Shown: positions 34,275 through 43,432 of the stretch, piece by piece | Position numbering within the stretch: the stretch's first letter is position 1 | Layout: each line of letters opens with the position of its first letter | DNA from: Actinomycetota bacterium | Lineage (GTDB): Bacteria; Actinomycetota; Geothermincolia; Geothermincolales; RBG-13-55-18 | Length of the DNA stretch: 64,000 bases | Assembly (NCBI GenBank): GCA_014360685.1 | Contig: JACIXB010000015.1 | Location: forward strand, 1-64,000 | Reading direction: 5' to 3' | Notes under the pieces: generated by a model | What the model was told of the DNA's origin: nothing | Seen by the model: only the letters and a program-made list of their open reading frames with translations | The model's database searches: none | Made by a program: the position numbers and the translations under genes

Positions 34275-34610
34275 TCAGAACTCCCCGTGGTAGGAACAGG
34301 AGATGGTGGGCGGCGAGTCCCCTCCGCCTGTGAAGGTGTAGGAGTCCGGTGTGCCCACCTCCGGGCATACCGGGACCTTTTCCATGAACTCCGGGACGAG
34401 ATCGCCCACGGAAGTAGGGTAGGAACCGTAATGCGCGTTGTAGGCCCCGGCCGCGGACTTCATGGCCCTCACGTTGGCTTGGCACACCTTCTCCGCGGCG
34501 TTCTCCCGAGCGCTCACGAAAACCGGCACCGCCACGCCCACCAATATCCCCATGATGAGGATGACGATCATGAGCTCGATGAGCGTGAATCCCTTCTCCC
34601 GCGGATTCAT
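34275..34610 (-). CDS. Type IV pilin-like/pseudopilin protein
   Basis: A 111-residue protein with a perfect class III signal: short charged leader MNPREKG, then FTLIELMIVILIMGILVGVA, with Glu at position 5 after the predicted cleavage site. The short C-terminal globular part carries two Cys residues in VCPE and SCSYHG. Such proteins are cut by prepilin peptidase and assembled in a pilus or type II secretion pseudopilus. No pilus assembly genes are nearby, so it is an orphan. The start at 34610 has AGGAG immediately upstream, tighter than usual. Confidence 0.85.
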   Translation of the reverse strand: MNPREKGFTLIELMIVILIMGILVGVAVPVFVSARENAAEKVCQANVRAMKSAAGAYNAHYGSYPTSVGDLVPEFMEKVPVCPEVGTPDSYTFTGGGDSPPTISCSYHGEF

Positions 34611-35279: not shown

Positions 35280-35418
35280 GAGATCCAACCTCAACTTCCT
35301 CACCCCCTCGGTCTATTCATGCCCCGAGGGGATTTTTGTGTGCACCTTTTCGAGTAGATTTTATTTTTGAGGCAACGAATCCGTTTGGAGTAGATTAATT
35401 ATGAGTCAATGCGCACCG

Positions 35419-35447
35419 TTGACACGAGGACTCGTCGCGCGTAAAAT
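35419..35447 (+). promoter_or_regulatory. trp operon promoter
   Basis: TTGACA at 35419-35424 is a perfect -35. A 17-bp spacer leads to TAAAAT at 35442-35447. The predicted start at about 35454-35455 is only two or three bases before the leader-peptide ATG at 35457. Confidence 0.88.
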
Positions 35448-35456
35448 CAGCCTATC

Positions 35457-35513
35457 ATGGAAAGACGAACGACGGTAAGTTCCGAGATTCGATGGTGGTG
35501 GAGCCCCTCCTAG
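35457..35513 (+). CDS. trpL: trp leader peptide
   Basis: An 18-codon open frame, MERRTTVSSEIRWWWSPS, with three consecutive TGG Trp codons at 35493-35501 and a TAG stop at 35511-35513. It begins almost at the predicted transcription start, so it is translated from a leaderless or nearly leaderless mRNA. The Trp codons lie at the foot of the first hairpin and the stop codon is in its loop, exactly the geometry of a ribosome-mediated attenuator. When charged tRNA-Trp is scarce the ribosome stalls on these codons; otherwise it reaches the stop. The peptide itself has no known function. Confidence 0.9.
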   Translation: MERRTTVSSEIRWWWSPS

Positions 35514-35639
35514 GGAGAGGGCTCCGCTGAAGCACGCCTTTTAAGATTCTCAATCCATAGCCAAACGTAAGGCTTAAACCCAAAAGCAAGACAGCGACAA
35601 GGCCGCGAGCCCTCTCCAGGGGAAGCGGCCTCTATTTTT
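35500..35639 (+). promoter_or_regulatory. trp attenuator: competing 1:2, 2:3 and 3:4 hairpins
   Basis: Segment 1 (GGAGCCC, 35500-35506) pairs with segment 2 (GGGCTCC, 35519-35525), extended inside by CTCC/GGAG. Segment 2 (GGAGAGGGCTC, 35514-35524) is also a perfect 11-bp complement of segment 3 (GAGCCCTCTCC, 35607-35617), forming the antiterminator. Segments 3 and 4 form the terminator. A stalled ribosome on the Trp codons covers segment 1 and frees segment 2, allowing transcription into trpE. A second strong hairpin, GGGCCGCT/AGCGGCCC at 35644-35673, lies just beyond and has no T tract. Confidence 0.9.
35601..35639 (+). terminator. trp attenuator terminator
   Basis: GGCCGC (35601-35606) pairs with GCGGCC (35625-35630), with a further CCC/GGG inside, followed by TCTATTTTT. 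It is about 315 bp upstream of trpE and is the 3:4 arm of the attenuator. Confidence 0.88.
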
Positions 35640-35679
35640 GCGTGGGCCGCTTTCCCGCCAGGGCGAGCGGCCCAAATGC

Positions 35680-35861
35680 TTCAGGAGGTGGGAAGGATGG
35701 AGCGATGGCGCACCGGGGATCACCGGGCCGAATGCGCCGTCGGGAACAGGATGAAAGGATGGCCCCGGATAACGGGTGCGACGATCGGAGCCCGGCGTAT
35801 GGAGGATTTCCGCGCCGCCCCAGGGATTCAGGAGGTGGGAAGGATGGAGCGATGGCGCACC
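35680..35861. repeat. 35-bp exact direct repeat in the trp leader
   Basis: Identical 35-bp copies occupy 35680-35714 and 35827-35861 (TTCAGGAGGTGGGAAGGATG and following), 147 bp apart. A weaker third likeness starts near 35750 (AACAGGATGAAAGGATGG). They lie between the attenuator and trpE and contain AGGAGG-like tracts. No function is known; they are not CRISPR-like. Confidence 0.8.
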
Positions 35862-35953
35862 GAGTTCCCGGCATGAATTGTTCGCCTTTCGGTTACGCAC
35901 GGGTTCCGCCGCACCGAGAAGCGGCCGGATAAAGTTCTGGAGGTTAATCGAAG

Positions 35954-37582
35954 ATGCAAAAGGCGATAATGGGAAAAATTCCCATGAACCCCGGGCTCTA
36001 TACGCCCGGCGAGGAGGAATTCCTGGAGCTTTCGCGCGATCACAACCTGGTCACCGTCAGCCGCGCCGTGGAAGCGGACACGGAGACCCCGGTCACTTCC
36101 TTCCTGAAACTGGTAAAAGGTGAGTACGCCTTCCTGCTCGAAAGCGCCGAGGGTGGGGAGCGTTGGGGCCGTTATTCCTTCCTCGGTTGCCGTCCGCTCT
36201 GCGTCATAACCTACGCGGAGGGGAGCATAGGCGTACCCCTAGGGGCGGTAGAGCTCGAACGCCTGCGCGGAGCCTTGCTTCCCACCCGGGAAAAGGAAGG
36301 TGAAAGTCCGGGACGCGCCGATCCCCTGGAGCCTTCGGGAGGGGATCCCGTTGATTTCCTCTTCAACGTCATGGACTCCTTCCGGGCTTCCCCTCCTCCG
36401 GAGGGCCTCCCCTTCTGCGGCGGGGCGGTGGGATATTTCGGCTATGACCTCCTTCCCTTCATGGACAAGGTGACCCTGCGCCAAAAAAGGGGCCTCGCCG
36501 TCCCGGACATGGTCTTCATGCTTACCCGAACCGCTGCCGCCTTCGACCATCTACGGGGTCGCGTGATACTCCTCGCCAACGTACCGATCCCGGAGCACGC
36601 CGAGGCCGGAGAAAGGCGCCTGCTCTACCGGGAAGCTACGGCCGTCCTCGAATCCATGGCCCGCGACCTGGCCGCGAAATCCGTACCTCCTCCGAGGGGA
36701 GAGGTCTACTACCTTTCCGAGGAGATCGATTTCCGGGAGGTGGAATCCAACTGCACCCGCGAGGAATACGAGGACATGGTGCGCCGGGCCAAGGATTATA
36801 TCTTTGCCGGGGAGGCCTTCCAGGTGGTCCCATCCCAGCGCTTTTCCACGCCGCTGCGTTGCTCGCCCTTCTCCGTATACCGTGCGTTGCGGGGACAGAA
36901 TCCCTCCCCCTACATGTTCTTCCTGCGCTGCGGCGCCCTCCACCTGGTGGGGTCCTCGCCGGAACCCATGGTGAGGAGGCGCGGCGCGGAGGCCGTCATC
37001 CGGCCCATCGCCGGCACCAGGCCGCGCGGCAGGACTCCGGAGGAGGACCTGGCGCTGGAGCGGGAGCTGCTCTCCGACGAGAAGGAGCGAGCCGAGCATG
37101 TCATGCTGGTGGACCTGGCCCGCAACGACCTGGGAAGGGTCTGCGAGCCAGGAAGCGTCTCCCTGCGCAGGGTCATGGAAGTGGAGCGATTTTCTCACGT
37201 CATGCACCTGGTGAGCGAGGTGGCGGGGACCCTGCGGGCCGATTTGGGCAACCGCGAGCTACTGCGCTCCGCCTTTCCCGCCGGCACCGTCTCCGGCGCT
37301 CCCAAGATAAGGGCCTGCCAGGTGATAGACGAGCTGGAGAAGGAACGCCGGGGCCCTTACGCCGGAGCCGTGGGTTACGTCTCCTACCACGGGGACATGG
37401 ACACCTGCATCGCCATCCGCACCGTCGTCATTCGCGGGGACCGGGCCTACGTGCAGGCCGGGGGCGGGGTGGTGGCCGACTCGGACCCCTCCCGGGAGTA
37501 CGAGGAAACGGTGAACAAGGCCCGCGCACTCCTGCGTGCCATCCGCATGGCCGAGGCCCGCGAGGGGGTGATGGTCCTTTGA
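35954..37582 (+). CDS. trpE: Anthranilate synthase component I
   Basis: A 542-residue enzyme of the chorismate-binding family. With TrpG it converts chorismate and glutamine to anthranilate, the first committed Trp step. The N-terminal feedback domain includes the LLESAEGGERWGRYSFLG segment, whose LLES and YSF elements bind tryptophan in known TrpE proteins. The catalytic half contains FQVVPSQRFS, the PIAGTRPRGRT block, ERAEHVMLVDLARNDLGRV and YAGAVGYVSYHGDMD. ATG 35954 is 11 bases after GGAGG, a little distant, and nearby ATGs at 35969 and 35984 are alternatives. It is the first structural gene after the attenuator and its stop overlaps the trpG start. Confidence 0.96.
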   Translation: MQKAIMGKIPMNPGLYTPGEEEFLELSRDHNLVTVSRAVEADTETPVTSFLKLVKGEYAFLLESAEGGERWGRYSFLGCRPLCVITYAEGSIGVPLGAVELERLRGALLPTREKEGESPGRADPLEPSGGDPVDFLFNVMDSFRASPPPEGLPFCGGAVGYFGYDLLPFMDKVTLRQKRGLAVPDMVFMLTRTAAAFDHLRGRVILLANVPIPEHAEAGERRLLYREATAVLESMARDLAAKSVPPPRGEVYYLSEEIDFREVESNCTREEYEDMVRRAKDYIFAGEAFQVVPSQRFSTPLRCSPFSVYRALRGQNPSPYMFFLRCGALHLVGSSPEPMVRRRGAEAVIRPIAGTRPRGRTPEEDLALERELLSDEKERAEHVMLVDLARNDLGRVCEPGSVSLRRVMEVERFSHVMHLVSEVAGTLRADLGNRELLRSAFPAGTVSGAPKIRACQVIDELEKERRGPYAGAVGYVSYHGDMDTCIAIRTVVIRGDRAYVQAGGGVVADSDPSREYEETVNKARALLRAIRMAEAREGVMVL

Positions 37583-38151
37583 TCCGGGTGGTGCTCATCG
37601 ACAACTACGACTCCTTCACCTACAACCTGGCCCAAGCCCTACAAGTGCTGGGGGCCGAGGTGATCCCGGTACGCAACGACGAGCTCTCCCCCTCGGAGGC
37701 GATAGGGTTGGATCCCACCCACCTGGTCATCTCTCCCGGTCCGGGTGGACCCGGGGACACCGGGATCACCATCCCCGTGCTCGAAAAGCTGGCGGGTAGG
37801 GTGCCCATCCTCGGTGTCTGCCTGGGACACCAGGCCATCGGCTACGCTTACGGGGCGGAGGTGGTTCGGGCACCGTACCCGATGCACGGGAAAATTTCCA
37901 GAATATACCATGATGGCCGTACCATCTACCGGGGCGTCTCCAACCCCTTTACCGCCACACGATACCACTCCCTGATACTGAGCGACGATCTCCCCGCGGA
38001 ATTGGAGGTGAGCGCCCGCAGCGAGGACGGGCTGGTGATGGGGATCAGGCACCGAACCATCCCCGTGGAAGGGGTGCAGTTCCATCCCGAGTCCTTCCTC
38101 ACCGGCGAGGGAGAGGATATCCTGAGGAATTTCTTGGAAATGGAGGCCTGA
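37579..38151 (+). CDS. trpG: Anthranilate synthase component II (glutamine amidotransferase)
   Basis: A 190-residue class I amidotransferase. It has the IDNYDSFTYNLAQ start, the oxyanion SPGPGGPGD block, the nucleophile in LGVCLGHQAIG and the His-Glu of the triad in GVQFHPESFLT. It supplies ammonia to TrpE. Start TTG 37579 overlaps the trpE stop (TTGA), which implies coupled, equimolar translation; a GTG at 37588 is a less likely start. No pabB is near, so it may also serve folate synthesis. Confidence 0.95.
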   Translation: MIRVVLIDNYDSFTYNLAQALQVLGAEVIPVRNDELSPSEAIGLDPTHLVISPGPGGPGDTGITIPVLEKLAGRVPILGVCLGHQAIGYAYGAEVVRAPYPMHGKISRIYHDGRTIYRGVSNPFTATRYHSLILSDDLPAELEVSARSEDGLVMGIRHRTIPVEGVQFHPESFLTGEGEDILRNFLEMEA

Positions 38152-38215
38152 AGGTGAACGGCTACGGCGAAGTGGATGTCAGGTTGAAAGATGTTTTGGA
38201 AATGGAGGTGGGAAC

Positions 38216-39244
38216 ATGTTGAGCGAGGTCCTGGCCCGGGTCACCGCCGGCGAGAGCCTGGACCGGGAGACCGCCCGGAAGGTCATGTCCCTGATCATGA
38301 GGGGGGAGGCCACCGACGCCCAAGTAGCCTGCCTGCTCACCGCCTTAAGAATGCGAGGAGAGACCTCCGAGGAGATCGCCGGCTTCGCCCAGGCCATGCG
38401 CGATGCGGCGGTCAACATCCGCCCCTCCGTATCCCCCCTTGTGGATACCTGCGGCACGGGGGGAGACGGCCGGGGAACCTTCAACATCTCCACTTCCGCC
38501 GCTTTCGTGGCCGCCGGGGCAGGAGTCTATGTGGCCAAGCACGGTAATCGCGGCGTGAGCTCCTCCTGCGGAAGCGCCGACGTCCTCGAGGCCCTGGGGG
38601 TGGATATCGAGATGGAACCGGAAAGGGTGCGCGCCTGCATCGAGGAGGTGGGCATCGGGTTCCTCTTCGCGCCCCGTTTTCATCCCGCCATGCGCCACGT
38701 GATGCGCGCCCGCCGGGAAATGGGCATCCCAACCGCCTTCAACCTGCTCGGTCCCCTCACCAACCCCGCCGGAGCGCAGTACCAGCTCCTGGGGGTGGGC
38801 AAAAGGGATAAAGCCCCCCTCGTCGCCGGCGCCCTGGCCGGCATGGGGGTTCGCAGGGCCCTGGTGGTGCACGGGGAAGACGGGATGGATGAGATCTCCA
38901 CCTCCTCCCCCACCCTGGTCTGGGAAGTGGAGGAAGGTGAAGTCAGGGAGGGGCGCGTCGAACCCGAGAAACTGGGCCTGGAAGCCGCCGATCTCCGGAC
39001 GCTTCGGGGCGGGAGCGCGGAGGAGAACGCGCGCATCATCCGGGACGAGGTACTCGCCGGAAAGCCGGGGCCCCGCAGGGACATCACCGTCCTCAATGCC
39101 GCCGCGGCCCTCTACGCCGCCGGGAGAGCGGCCGATCTCCGCGAGGGGATATCCTTGGCGCGGGAGGCCATCGATTCCGGGAGGGCGATGCGCAAGCTGG
39201 AGATGTTGGTAGAATATTCCAAGGAGGCCAGCCGTGTTCCTTGA
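38216..39244 (+). CDS. trpD: Anthranilate phosphoribosyltransferase
   Basis: A 342-residue enzyme that joins anthranilate to PRPP. It shows the VDTCGTGGDGRGTFNIST PRPP-binding loop, the KHGNRGVSSSCGSADVLEAL anthranilate and PRPP segment and NLLGPLTNPAGA. ATG 38216 follows GGAGGTGGGAAC. A 64-bp gap after trpG contains a partial copy of the same upstream sequence (TTGGAAATGGAGG twice), probably a small duplication. The stop overlaps trpC by 11 bases. Confidence 0.96.
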   Translation: MLSEVLARVTAGESLDRETARKVMSLIMRGEATDAQVACLLTALRMRGETSEEIAGFAQAMRDAAVNIRPSVSPLVDTCGTGGDGRGTFNISTSAAFVAAGAGVYVAKHGNRGVSSSCGSADVLEALGVDIEMEPERVRACIEEVGIGFLFAPRFHPAMRHVMRARREMGIPTAFNLLGPLTNPAGAQYQLLGVGKRDKAPLVAGALAGMGVRRALVVHGEDGMDEISTSSPTLVWEVEEGEVREGRVEPEKLGLEAADLRTLRGGSAEENARIIRDEVLAGKPGPRRDITVLNAAAALYAAGRAADLREGISLAREAIDSGRAMRKLEMLVEYSKEASRVP

Positions 39245-40064
39245 GCGGGCCGTGGAAGAAGCCAGAAGGCGCGTCCGGGAAATGTCGAAGATATTCCCCG
39301 TCACCCATCTTGAAACCCTTTGCTCGGACCTGCCTCCGCCACCCTCGCTATCAAGGGCTATCCGGCGCAACGCGGAGGAAGGGGTGGCCATAATCGCGGA
39401 AGTGAAACGCCGCTCTCCTTCCAGGGGAGTCATCAATCCCGACCTCCGGGTGGCGGAGACCGTCCGTGCTTATTCTCGGGGCGGCGCTTGCGCGGTCTCC
39501 GTGCTCACCGAACCTCGCCATTTCGGGGGGAGCCTCTTGGACCTCGCCGAGGCTTCGGCCGCCGTGGACATACCGGTGCTGCGCAAGGATTTCATATTGG
39601 ATCGCTACCAACTCCTGGAAGCGAGGGCGGCGGGAGCGGCGGCGGTACTGCTAATCGCCGCCGCACTGGACAAAAGGGGGCTATCATCGCTCCTGGCGGA
39701 ATCGAGGGAACTAGCCTTGGAATGCCTGGTGGAGATACGCGACGAGAAAGAACTGGAGAAAGCGCTGGAGGCCGGTGCGCAGATGATCGGGATCAACAAC
39801 CGGGACCTCGACACCCTTGAGGTGGACGTCAAAACCGCCCTGCGCCTGGCCCCCCTGGTCCCCGATTCCCTTACCCTGGTGGCCGAAAGCGGTTATCGTT
39901 CTCGAGGTGACTTGGAGGGATTGCGGGAAAGGGGAGTGGACGCGGTCCTGGTGGGCGAGGCCCTCTCGGGCAGCCGGGATCCCGAGCGCGCCCTGCTGGC
40001 CCTACGGGGCGCGGGGAAGGCGAGCTCCAACCGGGAAGCGGGCGAAGGACTATCAGGCCCATGA
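39234..40064 (+). CDS. trpC: Indole-3-glycerol phosphate synthase
   Basis: A 276-residue TIM barrel. Catalytic Lys and Glu residues are in IIAEVKRRSPSRG, VLRKDFILDRYQ and LVEIRDEKE, and the phosphate site is in GINNRDLDTL and VAESGYRSRGDL. It closes the pyrrole ring of CdRP to indole-3-glycerol phosphate. GTG 39234 lies inside the end of trpD behind AAGGAGG, indicating translational coupling. The last ~20 residues are not conserved. Confidence 0.95.
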   Translation: MFLERAVEEARRRVREMSKIFPVTHLETLCSDLPPPPSLSRAIRRNAEEGVAIIAEVKRRSPSRGVINPDLRVAETVRAYSRGGACAVSVLTEPRHFGGSLLDLAEASAAVDIPVLRKDFILDRYQLLEARAAGAAAVLLIAAALDKRGLSSLLAESRELALECLVEIRDEKELEKALEAGAQMIGINNRDLDTLEVDVKTALRLAPLVPDSLTLVAESGYRSRGDLEGLRERGVDAVLVGEALSGSRDPERALLALRGAGKASSNREAGEGLSGP

Positions 40065-40340
40065 TTCGAGGTTCCACGGACGGACTCCTCCGTGGAAACG
40101 GGAAAGGGAGAAGCTCCCCGAGTGCGGCGGATGGATCGCGGATAGATGCTTTCAGGACCTGGAGACGAGGCAGCGGGATGAAGCGACTTACCAACAGGGA
40201 AGCGGCTTACCCTCCCCCGAAACGGGAACGCCGGCAACGCGGGGAAAGCGGCTGGAAAGGCGGCACGGTGTCCAGGAACCGGAACGCAACCCGGGCAGCC
40301 GCCTCGCCCGCCCCAGGTAAAAAAGAGGTGAGACAGCACG

Positions 40341-41150
40341 ATGTGGGGAAGGGAAAGTAACGGTACGGTCGGATACGGAGCGCCTTTCATCAAGGCCTGC
40401 GGCATCACCAGGCCGGAGGACGGTTTGGCTGCCTGCGCCGCCGGTTTCACCGCCGTGGGCTTCGTCTTCGCACCCGGCCCGAGGCAGGTGCACCCCGACC
40501 GGGCCCGCCAGATCGCCTCGCGGTTACCCGCCTCCGTGCTGCGGGTAGGGGTCTTTCTCGACCATGACGAGGAGGAAGTGCGCGAGATTGCCGCCTTCTG
40601 TTCCCTGGACCTGGTGCAGCTCCACGGCCCCTCCCGCGACCTGGCCCCACGGTTCTCCGGCAAGGCCATTCCCTCCCTCCAACCGCGCACGGGGGAGGAC
40701 CTGGAAGCGCTTGAGGACTACCACGGCGCTTTCGCGGTGCTTCTGGACACCTGGGACCCGAAGCTCCCGGGGGGGACGGGCCGGGTAGGGGACTGGGGCC
40801 TGGCCGCCGAAGCGGCTCGCAGAAGCCGGGTCATCCTGGCCGGAGGACTGAACCCCGCCAACGTGACCGATGCCGTCTCCCGCGTGCGTCCCTTCGGGAT
40901 CGACGTGTCCAGCGGGGTGGAGGCGGCGCCCGGTATCAAGGACCCCGCCCGCCTGCGCGACTTCGCCGCAGCCGCGTGGGCGGCGTTCGCGGGCAGTCTT
41001 TATCCCGCGAAGGGAGTCAAGGTAAAGAACCGTGCGCTGGGTGTCGGCGACCCCACCGGGGCGGGGTTTTGCACTCCGAAGCAAAATCCTTCTACCTACC
41101 CCGCCCCTTATGGTAAAAGATGGAAAGAAACGGAGAAACCGGAAAGATGA
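40341..41150 (+). CDS. trpF: Phosphoribosylanthranilate isomerase with a long C-terminal tail
   Basis: A 269-residue protein. The catalytic core (about 15-215) has [15 protein letters not shown] with the general-base Cys, VQLHGP, LLDTWDP with the catalytic Asp, and [16 protein letters not shown]. It isomerises PRA to CdRP by an Amadori rearrangement. Family members are about 205-215 residues, so the last ~55 residues are an unconserved extension ending at 41150; it may be read-through of an eroded stop. The 276-bp gap before it holds no gene. ATG 40341 follows GAGGTGAG at a rather long distance. Confidence 0.92.
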
Positions 41151-41328
41151 AAGCGGCTATGGCATTTATTACCAATATAGGGTTGGCCGAGACAGGATAT
41201 GCCCGGTCGTCCCCCGCGAAAACCCCGAAAAGCGCCCGCCCTCCGGAATGGAGCGGGAGCGCGTCGAGAACCGCGCCGGGGCACAGGAAAGGCAGGTCCC
41301 ACACGGGATAAACGAGGAGGTTGAACGG

Positions 41329-42552
41329 GTGAAAGGCATGCAGGATACATCTCCCGGGTACGCGCAACCCGGAGGACACTTCGGGGCTTTCGGGGGGCGT
41401 TTCGTGCCCGAGACGCTCATCGCTCCCCTGGAGGAGTTGGAGGAAGCCTACCTGGAAGCGGCGAGAGACCCCGCTTTTATCGAGGAATTGGACGGCTACC
41501 TTCGTGATTACGTCGGAAGGCCCACCCCGCTCTACCGCGCGGAGCGCCTGAGCCGGGAGCTGGGAGGAGCGACCGTTTTCCTCAAGCGGGAGGACCTCTG
41601 CCATACCGGTTCCCACAAGATAAACAACACCCTGGGGCAGTGCCTGCTGGCCAGGCGCATGGGGAAGCGCCGGGTGATCGCCGAGACGGGAGCCGGTCAG
41701 CACGGAGTGGCCACGGCCACCGCCGCCGCCCTCCTGGGCCTGCAATGCGACGTGTACATGGGCGAGGTGGACATGGAGCGGCAGGCCCTCAACGTCTTCC
41801 GCATGGAACTGCTGGGGGCCCGGGTGATCCCGGTGCGCTGCGGCTCGCGCACCCTCAAGGACGCGGTCAACGAGGCCCTGCGGGACTGGGTGGCCAGCGT
41901 GGACCACACCCATTACTGCCTGGGGTCGGTGGTGGGGCCCCACCCCTTCCCGACAATGGTGCGGGACCTGCAATCCGTGATCGGAAAAGAGGCCCGCCGC
42001 CAACACCTGGAGAAGACCGGCCGCCTGCCCGACTGCCTGGTGGCCTGCGTGGGAGGGGGGAGCAACTCCATCGGGCTCTTCCACCCCTTCCTGGACACCG
42101 GGGTGCGCATGGTGGGGGTGGAGGCCGGGGGCGTGGGCGACGGGCCCGGCCAGCACGGCAGCACCTTGGGACTGGGGTCGGTGGGCGTCCTGCACGGGGC
42201 GCGCTCCTACCTGCTCCAGGACGACGACGGCCAGGTTATGGAAACCCATTCCATCTCCGCCGGCCTCGATTACCCGGGCGTGGGACCGGAACACGCCTTC
42301 CTCAAGGACAGCGGGCGGGTGGAGTACGTCCGGGTGAGCGACGCGGAAGCCCTGGAAGCGGTGGACCTTCTATGCCGCACGGAGGGCATACTCCCCGCCC
42401 TGGAGAGCGCCCATGCCGTGGCCTACGCCGCCAGGCTGGCGCGGGAGCTGGGCCCGGGAGCCTCCATCGTGGTCTGCCTTTCCGGGCGGGGAGACAAGGA
42501 CGTGAACACCCTATCCTCCGCCCGCACGCGCAAAAACAAACCCGCGGGGTGA
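41329..42552 (+). CDS. trpB: Tryptophan synthase beta chain
   Basis: A 407-residue PLP enzyme of the TrpB1 type that normally pairs with TrpA. It has [13 protein letters not shown] near the start, the PLP Lys in [15 protein letters not shown], the EAGAGQHG-like block [13 protein letters not shown], the phosphate-binding [12 protein letters not shown] and the C-terminal [10 protein letters not shown]. It condenses indole with serine. GTG 41329 has GAGGAGG eight bases upstream and is preferred to ATG 41338. A much longer upstream frame overlaps trpF and is not credible. Confidence 0.96.
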
Positions 42553-42628
42553 AAGGGCCTGTACGGGACGGCGGGAATGGCCCGCACCCCGAAAAGACGG
42601 CCGGGTAGGTTATTTCGAGGAGGTTGCA

Positions 42629-43432
42629 TTGGACGGGATAACGAGGCTGGAAAAGATGTTCGAGGGGATCGGAGGCCGACCCGCGCTCATCGGCTTCCAT
42701 ACCGCCGGCTTCCCGGACCGGGATGTATCCCTGCGCATATGCCGAGCCCTGCTGGACCACTGCGACGCGCTGGAAGTGGGCATTCCCTTCTCCGACCCGG
42801 TACTGGACGGGCCGGTGATCCAGGAATCCTCCTTCCGGGCCCTGCGGGCCGGTTTCCGGCCACGCCACGTCTTCGGCCTGGTGGGAGAGCTAAGAAAAGA
42901 CTCGGATAAGCCTCTTCTCATCATGACCTACTACAACCCCGTGCACCGCATGGGGCACGGCCCCTTTTGCCGGGCGGCGGCGGAGGCCGGCGCGGACGGC
43001 CTGCTCATACCCGACCTCCCCCCCGAGGAAATGGGGGATCTCCGGGAAAGGGCCGGAGAGCGCGGTCTGGCGGTGGTCCTCTTCGCCTCCATGACCACCC
43101 CCGACGACCGGCTGCGCATGCTGGCCGGTCAGACGCAGGGCTTCCTCTACTGCTTCGCGGTCAAGGGGACCACCGGGATGCGGGAAAGCCTCTCCCGGGA
43201 ACTGGCCCCCTTCCTGGAGCGGGCGCGCCGTTTTTCCTCCGCGCCCATCGCCGCCGGGCTGGGGGTATCCAACCCGGAACAATGCCGGGAGGTGGGCAGG
43301 CTGGCCGACGGGGTCATCGTGGGAAGCGCCCTGGTCAAGGCGATCATGGACGCCCTGGAAGCGGGGGAGGATCCGGTCCCCGCCTTATCCTCCCTGGTTT
43401 CCGCCCTCCGAGATTCCCTTCACCAGGACTGA
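42629..43432 (+). CDS. trpA: Tryptophan synthase alpha chain
   Basis: A 267-residue TIM barrel that releases indole from indole-3-glycerol phosphate. The catalytic Glu (LEVGIPFSDP) and Asp (VLDGPVIQ) are both present, as are the LLIPDLPPEE loop and the phosphate-binding AAGLGVSNPEQ block. Indole is passed to TrpB through the shared tunnel. TTG 42629 follows GAGGAGG. It is the last gene of the trp operon; no strong terminator is visible after it. Confidence 0.95.
   Translation: MDGITRLEKMFEGIGGRPALIGFHTAGFPDRDVSLRICRALLDHCDALEVGIPFSDPVLDGPVIQESSFRALRAGFRPRHVFGLVGELRKDSDKPLLIMTYYNPVHRMGHGPFCRAAAEAGADGLLIPDLPPEEMGDLRERAGERGLAVVLFASMTTPDDRLRMLAGQTQGFLYCFAVKGTTGMRESLSRELAPFLERARRFSSAPIAAGLGVSNPEQCREVGRLADGVIVGSALVKAIMDALEAGEDPVPALSSLVSALRDSLHQD

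Follow-up and report, generated by a model that had tools for sequence, protein, structure and literature searches.

Two of the described trp attenuators are close to the locus considered here. The leader peptide TrpL1 of Streptomyces lividans is leaderless and carries three tandem Trp codons (WWW); its 18-codon leader, MFAHSTRNWWWTAHPAAH, is followed by hairpins and a U-rich stretch before trpE, and in these features, as well as in the phylum it comes from, trpL1-trpE resembles the leader, predicted to be leaderless, that is found in the window (the whole 64,000-nt stretch of DNA analysed, which is part of a 2.6-Mb draft genome) (PMC8079986). Classical antiterminator and terminator hairpins are described for S. 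lividans, but the available part of that report mentions nothing like a second terminator that pairs with arm 4 (PMC8079986); further, S. lividans belongs to a different class, and the leader in the window precedes a full trpEGDCFBA operon. In Sinorhizobium meliloti, the trpLE(G) attenuator RNA rnTrpL begins at the trpL ATG, as is predicted for the window, and trp attenuation is likewise ribosome-mediated; S. meliloti, however, is an Alphaproteobacterium with a 14-codon leader, and roles in trans of both sRNA and peptide are known for it (PMC7298713). Predictions of trp attenuators in Actinobacteria date from 2005 (PMC1262725). Since it has already been documented in Streptomyces and Sinorhizobium, a leaderless WWW trpL is not an oddity; in itself it is not new and is ordinary in Actinomycetota.

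Enterobacterial relay attenuators of the his/leu type employ alternative sets of pairings, A:B, C:D and E:F versus B:C and D:E, with termination confined to the last hairpin. A comparable chain of alternative pairings is found in the class to which the window belongs, with the differences that here both 3:4 and 5:6 (segments as in Table 1) are terminator-like, each followed by a T-run in the majority of relatives beyond the genus, and that the genes are those of trp. Mycobacteria reportedly possess polycysteine leaderless short ORFs, which Canestrari and colleagues are said to have described in 2020 (cited in PMC13236596). Like the predicted leader in the window, these are leaderless short ORFs of Actinomycetota sensing an amino acid; they differ in that the amino acid is cysteine and in that one paper assigns cysteine genes to translation attenuation. 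The rimP leader, not itself an attenuator of the leader-peptide type, is reported to have a second terminator in tandem (PMC2965389); among peptide attenuators, no trp case with tandem or second terminators was found in the open-licence literature, which is weak evidence of absence.

The element upstream of trpE in the window is very probably a ribosome-mediated transcription attenuator of the trp operon with a (near-)leaderless 18-codon leader peptide, because a promoter, the ORF, alternative stems, the trp operon downstream, conservation in the class, and covariation are found together. A first-pass annotation had proposed a classical four-part trp attenuator; all its parts are found immediately ahead of the trp operon, and in all 25 genomes of the class that have a close trpE match they are conserved and covary.

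Table 1. Features of the trp leader and operon in the window
Feature	Position	Strand	Basis or detail
Sigma-70-type promoter TTGACA-17-TAAAAT	35419..35447	+	Sequence; equivalent promoter at similar ATG distance in 25/25 class relatives
trpL leader peptide ORF	35457..35513	+	18 codons, WWW = codons 13-15, MERRTTVSSEIRWWWSPS, then stop
Segment 1, overlapping the Trp codons	35491..35510	+	Fold
Segment 2, partner of 1 (loop = stop codon) or of 3	35514..35530	+	Sequence, fold, shuffles
Segment 3, 5′ arm of terminator 1; upper part complements segment 2	35601..35617	+
Segment 4, 3′ arm of terminator 1; complementary to segment 5 over 13 bp	35619..35631	+
T-run of terminator 1, ATTTTT	35634..35639	+	Sequence
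Segment 5, 5′ arm of second hairpin; alternative partner of 4	35644..35659	+
Segment 6, 3′ arm of second hairpin; no T-run here, present in the majority of relatives beyond the genus	35660..35673	+
trpE, first gene of the operon	35954..37582	+	TIGR00564 above its cut-off
trpG, trpD, trpC, trpF, trpB, trpA	37573..43432	+	NCBIfam matches

Promoter, leader ORF and genomic setting

The promoter matches 11 of 12 consensus positions at a spacer of 17, and its −10 box lies 9 nt ahead of the leader ATG; both the promoter and the ORF with three tandem Trp codons are where the first-pass annotation had placed them. No Shine-Dalgarno sequence precedes the ATG. In several members of the genus and family the start reads ATGATGG, 6 nt separating the −10 box from the first ATG, and because this aligns with ATCATGG in the window, the 5′ UTR of the latter is likely to be about 0–3 nt long; the trpL start codon would thus coincide with the predicted 5′ end of the mRNA or lie no more than about 3 nt from it. 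The class set (phylum Actinomycetota) comprises 31 genomes, 25 of which matched trpE with E values of 1e-110 or lower, and in every one of these a near-consensus promoter places its −10 box 6–10 nt ahead of an ATG (the second ATG in L026). This spacing lends support to the near absence of a 5′ leader that had been claimed, and it makes (near-)leaderless initiation of trpL likely. If instead the peptide were translated from a longer mRNA that began at an upstream promoter and had a normal 5′ UTR, one might point to the leader frame being open upstream of the ATG in some relatives; against such a transcript, which we deem improbable, stand the lack of a Shine-Dalgarno sequence in the window and the fact that all 25 genomes keep the −10 box close to the ATG. 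Predicted ribosome-mediated attenuation with a (near-)leaderless start is well supported by these comparisons. In the window's own genome, perfect-consensus leaderless promoters are not generally enriched: 5 are followed by ATG and 5 by the control triplet GTA. Another perfect −35/−10 promoter (L114, G000:C8:61904-61943) is located 7 nt ahead of the ATG of an 11-codon ORF (MIMGRFGPRPG), which precedes a longer ORF; this arrangement is possibly due to chance.

A Trp-rich leader ORF is present upstream of trpE in all 25 genomes. Immediately before its stop codon it reads, among others, RWWWS(P/S/L/T)S; the window's family has RWWWSPS or a close variant, its order has RWWPS, GWWWSP or SWWWSP, and other families have FWWGSQ, FWWAPE, TWWWTL or similar; no WW leader was found upstream of the closest trpE-like gene in 20 genomes from other classes of the phylum. 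That a different sensor, i.e., a T-box or another described RNA element, is at work here is exceedingly improbable, because the tandem Trp codons are conserved and the Rfam families (including attenuator and T-box) gave no match to 35380-36000 at E up to 1.

Directly downstream of the leader follows the seven-gene operon trpE-G-D-C-F-B-A. Upstream of trpE, a direct repeat (35664-35715 and 35811-35862, spacing 147 nt) carries in each copy AGGAGG and an ATG (35697 and 35844), close to the point at which trpE begins in relatives; the two ATGs share one frame, that of a 59-codon ORF (35697-35876), and trpE of the window starts at 35954. The 5′ end of trpE looks as if it had been remodelled in this genome. 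Elsewhere in the genome, a second chorismate-binding paralogue (pabB- or trpE-like) is encoded (L001, G000:C3:433174-433935), and on the minus strand of the window (34275-34610) a type IV pilin-like ORF (MNPREKGFTLIELMIVILIMGILVGVAVPVF...) was recognized by eye.

Segments 1 to 4 and the first terminator

The 227-nt leader was folded, as the first-pass annotation had suggested, and gave a z-score of −4.4 (200 shuffles); in the minimum-energy fold the stop codon TAG (35511-35513), which had been placed within the loop of hairpin 1:2, is exactly its 3-nt loop. Base for base, 35514-35524 (GGAGAGGGCTC) is the 11-bp complement of 35607-35617 (GAGCCCTCTCC) that had been described, and the T-tracted terminator is there as well, with 3:4 at 35601-35630 followed by CTCTATTTTT (35630-35639). 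In the window 1:2, 2:3 and 3:4 are mutually exclusive, and segment 1 overlaps the Trp codons. Mononucleotide shuffles reached the pairing found in the window in 0 of 3000 cases for 1:2 and for 4:5, and at frequencies of 0.0003 for 3:4, 0.0017 for 5:6 and 0.015 for 2:3. A pairing that was absent from the first-pass annotation appears in the lowest-energy fold, where the extra hairpin's 5′ arm takes up arm 4 and terminator 3:4 does not form.

With enough Trp-tRNA, the ribosome would reach the stop codon in the loop of 1:2 and cover segment 2, upon which 3:4 would form and transcription would terminate; under Trp shortage it would stall on WWW in segment 1, allowing 2:3 to form and transcription to read through into trpE. 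When ribosome positions were simulated on the window, a stalled ribosome led to 2:3 plus 4:5, and a ribosome at the stop codon, on RNA ending at the first T-run, to 3:4. Folded at equilibrium, the leaders of the majority of relatives beyond the genus give 3:4 even with a stalled ribosome, and no antiterminator; therefore, the predicted switch must be kinetic there.

Of the 11 nt after hairpin 1, 7 are T in the window and 4–6 in its own genus and nearest neighbour (G001-G003 and G007); close relatives have weak U-runs behind this hairpin, other families strong ones. The first-terminator stems of L004-L007 are strong despite their poor T-runs (4–6 T of 11), and termination in these closest relatives may be weakly U-dependent.

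For covariation, arms 3 to 6 were marked in 24 genomes and species-matched pairing of arms was compared to species-shuffled pairing in 20,000 permutations. Matched pairing exceeded all permutations for each of 1:2, 2:3, 3:4, 4:5 and 5:6, and the control pairs 2:5 and 1:5 showed no excess. When permuted inside four clades only, the excess held for 2:3 (p=0.0013) and 3:4 (p=0.0006), the two stems for which the first-pass annotation had called for this check, as well as for 5:6 (0 of 20,000) and 4:5 (p=0.02); for 1:2 it was not significant inside clades (p=0.15). Scored by counts of paired positions instead of energies, 4:5 gave p=0.0004 overall and 0.10 inside clades.

The second hairpin and its pairing with segment 4

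The first-pass annotation had noted an extra hairpin behind the terminator. Its existence stands (35644-35673), but the view of it as an appendix does not, as it is conserved, covaries, and is able to pair with terminator arm 4. It is kept in 24 of the 25 class relatives at 3–19 nt from hairpin 1 and is missing from L015 (G004) alone; this sole trpE-bearing member of the class without it has its first terminator directly ahead of trpE and is a natural single-terminator control. Outside the window's genus the second hairpin is usually T-tailed, and in most relatives its 3′ end lies roughly 15–45 nt ahead of the likely trpE start, just before the ribosome-binding site; in the class it would most likely be a second terminator at this place. 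In the window's genus and nearest neighbour 3–6 of the 11 nt following it are T; in the window it is without a T-run and may have decayed, or may act via 4:5 alone.

In the window, 4:5 comprises 35619-35631 with 35644-35656, is used by the best fold, and in simulated folding of the full-length leader forms over 5:6 even in the replete state. Set against the 4–40 other terminator-like hairpins found in each of ten genomes, the complementarity of 4 and 5 stands out as exceptional (combined p about 1e-4 and 1e-5). By this comparison, the idea that GGCCG arms are a mere terminator habit of this genome was rejected. In most species the energies of 4:5 and of hairpin 5:6 are near each other, as expected of a switch, though the two do have an arm in common.

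The leader might nevertheless be a classical four-segment attenuator, with the second hairpin a duplicated back-up terminator or an mRNA-stabilizing hairpin and 4:5 without a role, a reading to which we give close to an even chance. Arms 3 and 5 are similar, as are arms 4 and 6, hence 3:6 is about as complementary as 4:5, and the preference of 4:5 over 3:6 is not significant (paired test, p=0.21); arms kept alike by duplication or for another reason would yield the same data, and L015 manages with one terminator. On the other hand, were a second terminator to stay closed upon starvation, trpE would be blocked, yet 24 of 25 genomes retain both hairpins; in the window, the fit of arm 5 to the complement of arm 4 (13 bp, −27.1) is better than the pairing of arms 3 and 6 (−25.6, interrupted); and in L016, arm 5 (AGCCGC) fits arm 4 (GCGGCT), arm 3 being GGCCGC.

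Six segments with alternative 2:3 and 4:5 complementarity are present, and for their function we tentatively propose, at somewhat less than an even chance, a class-wide double-terminator relay in which one stalled ribosome would disarm two consecutive terminators via 2:3 and then 4:5. Arm 4, once freed by 2:3, could pair with 5, leave arm 6 free and thereby disarm the second terminator, a step we hold to be quite possible though short of probable; under Trp sufficiency, 3:4 and 5:6 would both be closed, resulting in a tight off state.

Significance for the class

With the predicted attenuator, leaderless trp attenuation mediated by the ribosome would extend to an entire, mostly uncultured class of actinobacteria, which offers 25 natural variants for testing. 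The second hairpin is plausibly the interesting part of this leader, and the possible double-terminator relay the reason to look again; if the 4:5 step holds true, one ribosome stall would control two serial terminators, lowering leakiness without a repressor.
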